Of a stretch of 64,000 bases of DNA, positions 49,034-53,446 are shown one piece after another. The notes beneath the pieces are model-generated. The model was not told where the DNA came from. It did not search any database and worked only from the letters and a program-made list of their open reading frames with translations. This DNA is from Chloroherpetonaceae bacterium (lineage in GTDB: Bacteria; Bacteroidota; Chlorobiia; Chlorobiales; Thermochlorobacteraceae), in the NCBI GenBank assembly GCA_033763895.1, contig JANRJQ010000010.1, positions 500,146 to 564,145 on the forward strand, in the 5' to 3' direction. Every line of letters starts with the position of its first letter. Within the stretch, counting starts at the first letter, position 1. A program made the translations under genes and the position numbers.

Positions 49034-51139
49034 ATGCAGGTAAACAGCATCGAAATAAATCGAAGAAAAGGTTTTGGAATCGTATTCATGTACTTGGTGA
49101 TTTTTGTCTTCAGTCAAATAGGTTGCAATGAAGAGAAAAAAGCAATTACCCCAAGAAGAGAATCGGATTCCATATTCTCCGTGGCAATGAGACATGAATT
49201 TAAGAGTGACTATGATTCAGCTTTAACAAGTTATCAGCAGTTATTACAGAGAGATTCGACTTCTCAAATTGCAGGGATGGCACTTCTTCGTTCCGGCGAT
49301 ATACACCAGCGTTTTGGTCGATGGGAAAAGGCCGAAGAAGCTTTTGGCAAAACAATTTATTTCTCAGAAATACGCCCGATGTCTTTATGGGCTCGCGCTT
49401 CGCTCATTTTTCGAATTCGTCCTACACAAGTTCCTGATTCGCTCATCAATGAGCTCATTTATAATTCAACGATGAATGATACGGCTCAATTCATTTTAGG
49501 AAAAGCCTATTACTTGAAAGAAAAATATGTGGAGTCGGAAAAATCATTTTCGGCCATTCGAGATGTTCGTCAATTGATTTACCTCAGGGCATTGATCTAT
49601 CAAATTCTCATTGCACAGCGTCAGCAAAATCAATCGGCTTTCAATAAATATGTCAGTGCCTTCAAAGCCGGCTGTACCGGTCAATCACTTCAGACGGTTT
49701 TTTTGAATCGTCAGGATGCTTTTTATCAACAAATCAATGAAATCGTTGAAGAGGGGTCGGAAATCGCTCAGATTCGTGAAAGCCTGATTTCCCTTGTGCG
49801 ATACGCGAAAGGAGCTGGTGCGGGAGAGTATAAGCCTTATCAAGCTTGGTTTGAACTTTATGAAGAAACCCTTACTCGAACGCAAACTGCAGATTCAAAG
49901 CGGGCGCAAATGGTTTTTGAAAAAAATAATTTTGAGATTGGCGTTTTAATGTCGCTGATAAACTCGGGTCTTAATTCTTCTTATAACACCGAGGAAAGAA
50001 TTCGATTTTTAATTGAAGCACTAAAAATAGAGGAAGAATATCGCGGGTTTCCATTGCCGCTCCTCTTCAGAAATCAAGTGGAGAGAGCGCATCAAATTTT
50101 ACCCGAACTCTTGATTGAAAAAGCCCAGCAATTAGAATCATTTGAAATTGCTGAGCGGATTAAGATGGTCAAATTGCGGCAAAGTATAACGAACAATCTC
50201 CCCTATAAAATCAGGCTTGAAAGTAAAAATTCAATTCCGGGAGTTGATGAGTTAGTTTCATTTATCAAACAAGAAGAGCGGCTTTCTCATTTGGTTAGGT
50301 TGGAACAAGAATCGTTTTTGATTGAAGATGATCGTGATCGAGAAGTAAAGCTAACAGCGCTACAACCGACAATCGATCAAGAAAGAAATGCTTATTTCGA
50401 ACAGCTGAATAAAATTAAAAATATTACGCTCTCTTTGGGGGAAGTTCTTTTACCAACGCCGATGACCGTCGCTCGTTTGAAATCTAACCTAGAGGCAGAT
50501 GAAATCTATATTGATTTTTACTTTGGAGATAAACGCTCAAGAGCCATCTTAATTTCAAAAAATTCGATTGAAATTTACCCGCTTGAAATCACGAAAAAAA
50601 GATTGAATGACCTGCTTGAATCTGTCACTTGGGAAGACATTTCATCGAGAACTTTTCAATTGAAATCGAACCGCCACCCTGAAGCCCATCTTAGATTAAA
50701 TAACCTTTTTCAAAAAATTATTCAACGCGTTGAAAAAGAAAAACGATTGATTTACTCAACCAACGTCATGATTCAAATTGGATTATTTGGCAGTAATGAT
50801 TTTCTACAGTATAAAATGCCGATTTCATTCGTGAATTCTGCGGCTCAAGTCTCTGAGGAATTTAGACCAATTTCGGGCTCTCCAATAATGATAATTTCGG
50901 AAGATAAGGTTGAATCTTCATTCCCAATGATTCTCATCTTAAAGCAACGCGTTATTCTTGAAATGGATGTAAAGTATATTCGAAACGAATCGAAAAATGA
51001 GCCTTCTTTTGTTCGTGGCTATTCACCCAATCGTTTTGAAACGGTTGGAAGAGTTTCAGAACTATTTTATGAACAACTTCCTGCTGCAAGAAAAAATGAA
51101 AGCCGTGATTGGTTTAACTATCTTTCATTTGGAAATTAA
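49034..51139 (+). CDS. TPR lipoprotein with degenerate CHAT-like C-terminal domain
   Basis: The 701-residue protein begins with a hydrophobic leader ending in QIGC (Cys31), a weak lipobox. TPR-like helices cover about 50-260, then further helical segments to about 460. From about residue 470 the order resembles a CHAT (caspase-like) domain: VARLKSNLEADEIYIDFYFGDKRSRAILISK in pieces, then LIYSTNVMIQIGLF and SFVNSAAQVSE, matching the early strands. The usual catalytic His and Cys segments are not visible and the protein ends early, so it is probably inactive. The next gene starts 3 bases after its stop, indicating tight coupling. The CHAT match is by eye only. Confidence 0.5.
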   Translation: MQVNSIEINRRKGFGIVFMYLVIFVFSQIGCNEEKKAITPRRESDSIFSVAMRHEFKSDYDSALTSYQQLLQRDSTSQIAGMALLRSGDIHQRFGRWEKAEEAFGKTIYFSEIRPMSLWARASLIFRIRPTQVPDSLINELIYNSTMNDTAQFILGKAYYLKEKYVESEKSFSAIRDVRQLIYLRALIYQILIAQRQQNQSAFNKYVSAFKAGCTGQSLQTVFLNRQDAFYQQINEIVEEGSEIAQIRESLISLVRYAKGAGAGEYKPYQAWFELYEETLTRTQTADSKRAQMVFEKNNFEIGVLMSLINSGLNSSYNTEERIRFLIEALKIEEEYRGFPLPLLFRNQVERAHQILPELLIEKAQQLESFEIAERIKMVKLRQSITNNLPYKIRLESKNSIPGVDELVSFIKQEERLSHLVRLEQESFLIEDDRDREVKLTALQPTIDQERNAYFEQLNKIKNITLSLGEVLLPTPMTVARLKSNLEADEIYIDFYFGDKRSRAILISKNSIEIYPLEITKKRLNDLLESVTWEDISSRTFQLKSNRHPEAHLRLNNLFQKIIQRVEKEKRLIYSTNVMIQIGLFGSNDFLQYKMPISFVNSAAQVSEEFRPISGSPIMIISEDKVESSFPMILILKQRVILEMDVKYIRNESKNEPSFVRGYSPNRFETVGRVSELFYEQLPAARKNESRDWFNYLSFGN

Positions 51140-51142
51140 CCG

Positions 51143-53446
51143 ATGAAGAAGCCCCTCGCTTCTCTTCATTTGCCTCTCCAACTCTGCTCCTTTGGTTTGG
51201 GGGTTGCACTTACTCAGGTTTCACTTCTGAAAGATTTAGGATATGAAAGTGCGTTGATTTCCGGGCTAATACTCCCTTTAATTCACGGCTATTATTGGTT
51301 AGAAAAATCAAAAAGAGATTCTGAAGCAATCGACTTAAGTCATTATAGAATCAAATTATTAAATATTAGCCTTTCGTTTCTGCTTGTTCCCTTAGTGAAT
51401 TTTATTCTCACACTTGGTCAACAGTGCAACTTCATCGAAGGCCTTATTTGGTACATACTGGGTGCGGGTTTGGGAAGCGTTTTTTCGGTTTCACTTGCTA
51501 CAGTAATTAGCCAATTAAAGTTAAAGTATCCACGGTTAAGTTTTACAACTATTGTTTTTTTTCTATTACTCATAGATCCACTTTGGCGATTTTGGTTAAC
51601 CCCACAAATTTTTTTCTTTAATCATTTCTTCGGTTTTTTTGCAGGCTCTATTTATGATGAAGCAATAAGCCTTGAGCCTCGATATTTCTTATTTCGATTT
51701 GAAACGCTTCTTTGGTCAATCGCATTAATTTCCTTTGCGTTTCGAAATCTCGCAAAAAGGAACATTTTCTTTTCGTTGCTCTTTTCGCTCTTAGCCTTTG
51801 GAATCAGATTATTTCATGAGCCGATTAACCTTTCAAGTTCACATCTCGCAATTGAAAATCAGCTTTCTAAAGTCACCCCAACTGAGAACTGGTATGTTCC
51901 GAAATCAGTAAATCAAATTGAAAAAGAAAGAATACGAGTACGAATACAGCGTGAAATTAGAAGTCTTCAAAAGGTTTTGAACATAAATTCAGTTCATAAC
52001 TACAGGATTTATGTCTATGCCGACGCAGAAGAAAAGAAACGGTTTACAGGTGCAGAAGAAACAGAATTTACCAAGATTTGGCGTGGTGAAATTCATATCA
52101 CATTACAAGGGTTTGATCGAACGATTCGTCACGAGTTGGTTCATCTGATGATGGGAGAGGTCGGAATCAATGGAATTGGGATTTCAGCAAGTATCGGGCT
52201 TATTGAGGGAATTGCGGTTGCATTTGAAACACCCTCTGAAGAATGGACGAATGAAGAGCTTTCAGCGGCGTTATTAAAATTTAGCCTTGCTCCCGCATCA
52301 ATGGAATCTTTACTGAGTGCTCAAGGATTCTGGGGAGGGTTAAGTTCTACAAGCTATACTTTGATGGGCTCTTTTGTAAAGTTTTTAATCGAGAAATATG
52401 GTATCGAAAAGTTTAAGTCGGTTTATGCTTGGGCAAATTTTGATGAAGTGTATGGAAAAACACATCAAGCGCTCCTTACCGAATGGATCCAATATCTAAG
52501 TTCCATTCAATTTCCTTCGGAGCTTGAGTCATATCTAAGATATGTATTTGAACGTCAAAGTGTATTCCAAGCGCGATGCCCACACCAAATCGCGCGCAAA
52601 TTAAAAGAAGCCCGTTCGCTTTCAGCTAAAAAAGAGTTTGACAAAGCAACTCGATTATTTGAAGAAGTTATTGCGCTCTCCGGGCGAAGCAGAAATGCGG
52701 CAGTTCAAGGGTTATTAAGCAATGAACTTCGGAGAATAACAAGCGCCATTTCCGTAGATTCGGCAATTGAGTCTCTTTTAGATTATGAAAGCAACCTACA
52801 ATCGCGTGGGATTCGGAATCAATTTGAACAATGTTTTCTGAAAGTAGAGCCCCTAACCTTCAACCAAAAAAAGCAAGAAGCAATCCAATATCAGCTTGCT
52901 TCGTCAATGCTTTGGAGCGGCGTTGGAACGAAAGAAAAAATTGATTCGCTTTTTGAGCTAGTTTACAATCAACATCTCTCATCGTCGTTCGACATTGCTT
53001 CAATCATAGGAAAAGAGATCAATCAACGGTTAGGTTCTCAACCGTGGATGAACCCTTTTATCAAAGACTTTCAAAAATTGCATTCTTATCAATCCAGAGT
53101 GAAAGAAATTTCCGATACAACGGCTTTTGATTTTGAAACAGAAGTCATTTTACGAATCGCTCTTGAGCGAAGAAATCTGCTTCGAGCTGATACGTTGAAT
53201 TCATTTCCCTCATTCCTAGACAATCGTTTTGAAAGCGGCTTAGATTTATTGAACTCTCCTTTTAGGGCAATGATTAAAATGGAATGGTTTCGATTAAAAT
53301 TTGAACAAGCTCTAAAAAGCGGGCAGATGGATATTATTGACCAAGCCGGTAATGCCTATACAAATGCAACATCTCAACATCCCACGCAACTGGCCAAACG
53401 GCGTTGGATTCGTCATCATCTTGATTTGTATCAGACAGGCAATTAA
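51143..53446 (+). CDS. Multi-pass membrane protein with gluzincin-type metallopeptidase domain and helical C-terminus
   Basis: The 767-residue protein has about six transmembrane helices (roughly 15-30, 38-52, 73-92, 100-123, 134-152, 187-222). A soluble domain follows with zinc motif HELVH (330-334) and LIEGIAVAFE, where Glu355 would be the third ligand, 21 residues later, as in peptidase MA/gluzincins. Helical repeats of TPR type (from about 480; AKKEFDKATRLFEEVIAL) fill the rest. It looks like a membrane-bound protease with a protein-binding tail. It starts 3 bases after the CHAT-like lipoprotein gene, so the two are probably one unit. No known family was named with certainty. Confidence 0.7.
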   Translation: MKKPLASLHLPLQLCSFGLGVALTQVSLLKDLGYESALISGLILPLIHGYYWLEKSKRDSEAIDLSHYRIKLLNISLSFLLVPLVNFILTLGQQCNFIEGLIWYILGAGLGSVFSVSLATVISQLKLKYPRLSFTTIVFFLLLIDPLWRFWLTPQIFFFNHFFGFFAGSIYDEAISLEPRYFLFRFETLLWSIALISFAFRNLAKRNIFFSLLFSLLAFGIRLFHEPINLSSSHLAIENQLSKVTPTENWYVPKSVNQIEKERIRVRIQREIRSLQKVLNINSVHNYRIYVYADAEEKKRFTGAEETEFTKIWRGEIHITLQGFDRTIRHELVHLMMGEVGINGIGISASIGLIEGIAVAFETPSEEWTNEELSAALLKFSLAPASMESLLSAQGFWGGLSSTSYTLMGSFVKFLIEKYGIEKFKSVYAWANFDEVYGKTHQALLTEWIQYLSSIQFPSELESYLRYVFERQSVFQARCPHQIARKLKEARSLSAKKEFDKATRLFEEVIALSGRSRNAAVQGLLSNELRRITSAISVDSAIESLLDYESNLQSRGIRNQFEQCFLKVEPLTFNQKKQEAIQYQLASSMLWSGVGTKEKIDSLFELVYNQHLSSSFDIASIIGKEINQRLGSQPWMNPFIKDFQKLHSYQSRVKEISDTTAFDFETEVILRIALERRNLLRADTLNSFPSFLDNRFESGLDLLNSPFRAMIKMEWFRLKFEQALKSGQMDIIDQAGNAYTNATSQHPTQLAKRRWIRHHLDLYQTGN

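Follow-up and report, generated by a model that had tools for sequence, protein, structure and literature searches.

A predicted TPR lipoprotein of CHAT protease descent is encoded next to a putative membrane metallopeptidase in Chlorobiales

In the genome of a Chloroherpetonaceae bacterium two large genes follow each other on the same strand with only 3 bases between them, and the question is what the product of the first (P1), a predicted TPR lipoprotein with a protease-like C-terminal part, has to do with the product of the second (P2), a predicted membrane metallopeptidase. Both lie in the stretch of 64,000 nucleotides that was analyzed as a whole and is here called the window. A sequence-only reading had recognized the two open reading frames and their spacing, which were confirmed (Table 1), and had seen in their products a dead protease-like sensor beside an active membrane protease. 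The CHAT ancestry of P1, the loss of its catalytic dyad, the intact active-site residues of P2 and the adjacency of the genes in Chlorobiales have held up, whereas an obligate P1-P2 pair has not, each gene being found also alone; the terms "sensor" and "signalling or quality-control pair", which were used then, should be taken as interpretations.

Table 1. Positions of P1, P2 and their parts in the window
Feature	Position	Strand	Description
P1	49034..51139	+	701-aa predicted lipoprotein; TPR domain followed by a catalytically dead CHAT-like C-terminus
P1 lipobox-type Cys31 (IGC)	49124..49126	+	Invariant in the 13-member family alignment; lipidation site predicted from the sequence motif
P1 TPR region, about residues 57–209	49202..49660	+	TPR matches, model
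P1 CHAT-like core, about residues 474–613	50453..50872	+	Homologous to the front half of TPR-CHAT proteins
P1 short tail, residues 614–701	50873..51136	+	Where CHAT proteases have His and Cys; low model confidence
P2	51143..53446	+	767-aa membrane metallopeptidase (predicted), unnamed family; 7 TM, peptidase MA, TPR tail
P2 seven-helix membrane domain, residues 10–222	51170..51808	+	Model; conserved N160, G168, Y171, D172 and R185 around the helix 5–6 loop
P2 Cys95	51425..51427	+	Probable disulfide partner of Cys479
P2 peptidase domain, residues 240–478	51860..52576	+	Above the PF13485 (Pfam) cut-off when searched as an isolated domain
P2 HELVH zinc-binding motif, residues 330–334	52130..52144	+	H330, E331 and H334 invariant in 72 homologues
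P2 Glu355 (EGxA motif)	52205..52207	+	Presumed third zinc ligand; invariant in 72 homologues
P2 Cys479	52577..52579	+	Probable disulfide partner of Cys95
P2 helical-repeat (TPR-like) C-terminal tail, residues 480–766	52580..53440	+	Model

P1 begins with a hydrophobic leader that ends in Cys31 and, as had been proposed, can be regarded as a lipid-anchored TPR protein: TPR matches and the lipobox-type cysteine together predict a TPR lipoprotein, the lipid anchor being likewise a prediction. The structure model of P1 was built from only seven sequences and is unreliable in its C-terminal part. In Foldseek the whole model matched mostly TPRs, from many unrelated TPR proteins; the matches to the TPR of LbcA (8sxf_C) and to others are unspecific.

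The last third of P1 had been described as CHAT-like and devoid of visible His and Cys, and the lack of a structural match to CHAT domains had been named as what would speak against this description. Homology to the front half of CHAT was found both by profile search and by hhalign. The P1-family profile finds, through its positions ~430–607 (about 175 positions in consistent order), TPR proteins of about 900–1130 aa from other Bacteroidota; PF12770 (CHAT) matches the three of these that were tested with E-values of 1e-53 to 3e-68. The homology of P1 to the front half of the TPR-CHAT proteases covers residues ~440–613, with best domain E-values of about 1e-12 to 4e-14. In hhalign, P1 aligned with CHAT over 235 columns at a probability of 98.8 (E = 7e-17, valid for a single comparison), and with a single CHAT protein at a probability of 97.1. 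The common stretch consists of a helical linker and the early strands up to the P1 motif P-x-HLLG...YL...SYL-S-A, which aligns to LPFEAL...YLIE...Y-PS of CHAT proteins. In the P1 model, strands are found at residues 490–497, 502–508, 512–517 and 571–576, and the model is poor past residue 609.

One could object that the tail of P1 is an unrelated alpha/beta domain merely resembling CHAT, and that there is no pseudo-protease at all. Indeed, PF12770 matches neither P1 nor is it among the Pfam families reported for 13 homologues, the tail is modelled with low confidence, and against CHAT the last 60–70 residues do not rise above shuffled controls. The profile E-values over some 175 positions in order and hhalign probabilities of 97–99 nevertheless make this very improbable. 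PF12770 had no match in the genome of the window, and a PDB profile search with the C-terminal part of P1 yielded no relative.

How much of the protease has been lost is apparent from what follows the common motif. In the six CHAT proteins measured, 234–258 residues follow it, and the catalytic residues lie at +92 to +123 (His) and +142 to +170 (Cys), whereas the tails of 24 distinct P1 proteins are 92–105 residues long (median 102.5) and contain no conserved His or Cys, the commonest His column being His in 10 of the 24. The dyad is therefore lost throughout the family. Judged by its length, the tail of the window's P1 (residues 614–701) is too short to contain the catalytic Cys, and the catalytic segment was most likely lost in the common ancestor of the P1 family, not just in the window's genome. 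That the P1 tail descends from CHAT and has lost the dyad is, in our opinion, almost certain. Two observations concern the sequence of the tail itself. Its last ~60 residues (LLWKP...W..SSYG) look by eye like the end of CHAT (SLW.V...YWAPF..G), a resemblance that hhalign did not support, scoring it at 9.7 versus 10.3 ± 2.2 for 60 column-shuffled controls. And the P1 of the window is unusually diverged, since it is without the family motif P-x-HLLG (it reads VMIQIGLFG at about residues 573–588, window 50750–50800) and has the lowest family-profile score among the complete members.

In the TPR-CHAT proteases (PF12770; Csx29/TPR-CHAT of Craspase), too, a TPR region precedes the part to which P1 is homologous. 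The protease region of Csx29 contains a pseudo-caspase CHAT1 ahead of an active CHAT2 (PMC10028731); P1 keeps roughly what precedes the catalytic His and Cys, and its domain may correspond to the CHAT1-like module. P1 differs from the TPR-CHAT proteases in that it is a predicted lipoprotein and lacks the His-Cys dyad, about 140 residues around it and a PF12770 match. Unlike for Craspase, no association with CRISPR or PADLOC-listed defence genes was seen for P1. A defence-system function of P1-P2 was considered and rejected, neither protein having a match in PADLOC.

P2 had been read as a protein with six membrane helices; the AlphaFold2 model (ten sequences, mean pLDDT 79.8, pTM 0.79) has seven at the N-terminus, at residues 10–25, 33–53, 65–90, 97–124, 130–152, 179–199 and 206–222. 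The other features read from the sequence, HELVH with a third Glu and the helical-repeat tail, were found again, the latter in the structure model. The proposed relationship of the domain to peptidase MA also stood: residues 240–478 alone score 32.9 bits with PF13485 (cut-off 32.4), the full-length query with 29.8 staying just below. In 72 homologues, one of them from Myxococcota, H330, E331, H334, E355, G356, W313, G303, Y405, G168 and D172 are invariant, and N160, Y171 and R185 each vary in at most five. By its motifs P2 belongs to the peptidase MA superfamily (gluzincin-like), HExxH and the downstream Glu being present in 72 of 72, and it is very probably an active metalloprotease. With PF13485 (Peptidase_MA_2) P2 shares HExxH and the downstream Glu of EGxA, to which it adds the seven-helix membrane domain, a conserved cysteine pair and the TPR-like tail. 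Site-2 proteases (S2P) are likewise polytopic intramembrane metalloproteases with HExxH, but theirs sits inside a transmembrane helix, while in the P2 model HELVH lies in a domain past the last membrane helix. For P2, no full-length family turned up in Pfam or NCBIfam and no sequence relative in the PDB, where a profile search with its peptidase domain was likewise negative. In Foldseek the best PDB match of the whole model was LTA4 hydrolase with a probability of 0.90 yet an E-value of 0.17, which is not significant, and the tail resembled NlpI (6iqq) weakly.

Cys95 and Cys479 of P2 occur together in 71 of the 72 homologues and are both missing in the remaining one (L163:3057-5339), whose sequence contains no cysteine whatsoever. 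A disulfide between the two is therefore probable and would tie the helix 3–4 loop to the end of the peptidase domain. Lys/Arg counts of the loops (positive-inside) speak for an N-terminus in the cytoplasm and a peptidase domain that probably faces the periplasm; the cysteine pair with its joint loss also fits an oxidizing compartment.

Conservation of the neighbourhood in related genomes had been named as a further test of the pairing. Both genes were found in eight Chlorobiales genomes and in seven of these, across three families, they adjoin, P1 before P2, either separated by 3–15 bases or overlapping by 11–32 bases; in the eighth they are 1.16 Mb apart. This is far beyond chance, although between these genomes P1 is only 14–20% identical (P2, 33–37%). 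It should be noted, however, that each gene is also widespread alone, so that neither requires the other everywhere, and the link is not obligate. Full-length P1 occurs, within the sample, only in Chlorobiales, and about 50 Chlorobiaceae genomes, most of those of this family, have it without P2, the large family with P1 alone being taken here to be Chlorobiaceae. Matches to P2 were present, mostly in single copy, in 108 of the 296 sampled genomes of the phylum Bacteroidota (69 of 139 genera); a full-length relative was also found on a Myxococcota contig. Besides the Thermochlorobacter-type genomes, about 95 from other Bacteroidota have P2 without P1. A search of genome contigs with the single P2 sequence returned nothing, and an alignment-based search returned nine loci. 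A pair conserved throughout the phylum was rejected, P2 elsewhere adjoining murA, cca-like or other genes.

What might the two proteins do together? We propose that P1 and P2 would be made together as periplasmic proteins, P2 as an inner-membrane zinc protease of the peptidase MA superfamily, facing the periplasm, whose peptidase domain would be braced by a disulfide and followed by a TPR-like tail, and P1 as a lipid-anchored TPR protein descended from a TPR-CHAT protease but no longer containing the catalytic part of CHAT. The TPR and pseudo-CHAT surfaces of P1 could bind envelope substrates or P2, and P1 would control what P2 cuts. There are precedents for such an arrangement: LbcA is a TPR lipoprotein adaptor that binds and feeds the periplasmic protease CtpA in Pseudomonas (PMC8764530), as NlpI does with Prc in E. 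coli (PMC5686067). What P1-P2 would have in common with these is the association of a TPR lipoprotein with a protease in the periplasm. CtpA and Prc, however, belong to the carboxyl-terminal processing serine proteases, whereas P2 is a predicted membrane zinc metallopeptidase, and P1 has, unlike LbcA and NlpI, a pseudo-CHAT domain, its link to P2 being suggested here by adjacency. Kept adjacency, a common predicted compartment and the LbcA/NlpI precedent support the adaptor model; it is weakened by the separate occurrence of P1 and P2 and by the TPR-like tail of P2, with which P2 may need no adaptor. We therefore suggest only tentatively, at a little under an even chance, that P1 is a dead TPR-CHAT lipoprotein acting as adaptor or regulator of the P2 metalloprotease.

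It is also quite conceivable, if somewhat doubtful, that P1 and P2 are functionally unrelated, P2 acting as an envelope protease and P1 as a TPR scaffold lipoprotein, each on its own, and that their adjacency is a gene order inherited from the Chlorobiales ancestor and kept in some lineages. Synteny alone can indeed produce a common neighbourhood. This would agree with the absence of P1 from Thermochlorobacter-type genomes and from most Bacteroidota genomes that carry P2, with most Chlorobiaceae having P1 only, and also with the age of the gene order around P1, which is upstream of miaB-bchG-like genes in Chlorobiaceae as in locus L029. It does not readily explain why the overlapping or nearly overlapping arrangement was retained where the flanking genes otherwise differ, and why the two genes stayed paired despite diverging at such unequal rates. 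A third possibility is that P1 is not an adaptor of P2 but its substrate or inhibitory cap, cleaved or released upon a stress signal. Enzymes are often inhibited or capped by pseudoenzymes, and P1 diverges much faster than P2; P1 is, however, kept in genomes without P2, and we consider this possibility improbable.

The wider neighbourhood adds some observations, for which the names of murA and the cca-like gene were assigned by reading sequences. Outside Chlorobiales (loci L096-L115 and L127-L166 of the unnamed P2 family), 23 of 60 loci have murA a short distance upstream of P2, and 16–18 of 60 have a CCA-adding-enzyme-like gene after it. In the window a CCA-adding-enzyme-like gene lies before P1 (47510–49000); with its homologue following P2 in many other loci (murA-P2-cca), it may be left over from an older arrangement. 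Behind P1, several Chlorobiaceae have a RodZ-like gene and then a cysteine desulfurase-like gene (L040:9474-9899, L045:6356-7390), the RodZ-like genes encoding HTH_25 and in L045 also RodZ_C. Near the Myxococcota homologue of P2 a second HExxH protein is encoded on the minus strand (L055:6957-9455), with HEMTH and a downstream EEGLAE. On the basis of the neighbours murA and rodZ and of analogy, a link of P1-P2 to cell-wall homeostasis is possible.

In the open-access texts searched nothing pertinent was found on a CHAT pseudoenzyme or on Peptidase_MA_2/PF13485, nor was a description of the P2 family found. If the adaptor model is extended, a TPR-CHAT protease would have lost its catalytic half, become a lipoprotein and now work with P2, catalysis of the caspase type having been replaced by that of a metalloprotease in a two-gene envelope system, and the P2 family would constitute a class, unnamed so far, of envelope metalloproteases with seven membrane helices and a disulfide brace; we regard this whole scenario as rather unlikely. 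Should P1 and P2 be partners, they would represent a TPR lipoprotein-protease system put together from other parts than LbcA-CtpA and NlpI-Prc, and P1 would be an example of a CHAT protease pared down to a module that binds but does not catalyze. Independent of any partnership, the P2 family is a widespread and strongly conserved putative membrane protease of Bacteroidota without a curated full-length name, and, present in about a third of the sampled genomes of this phylum, it is of broader relevance than its pairing with P1.
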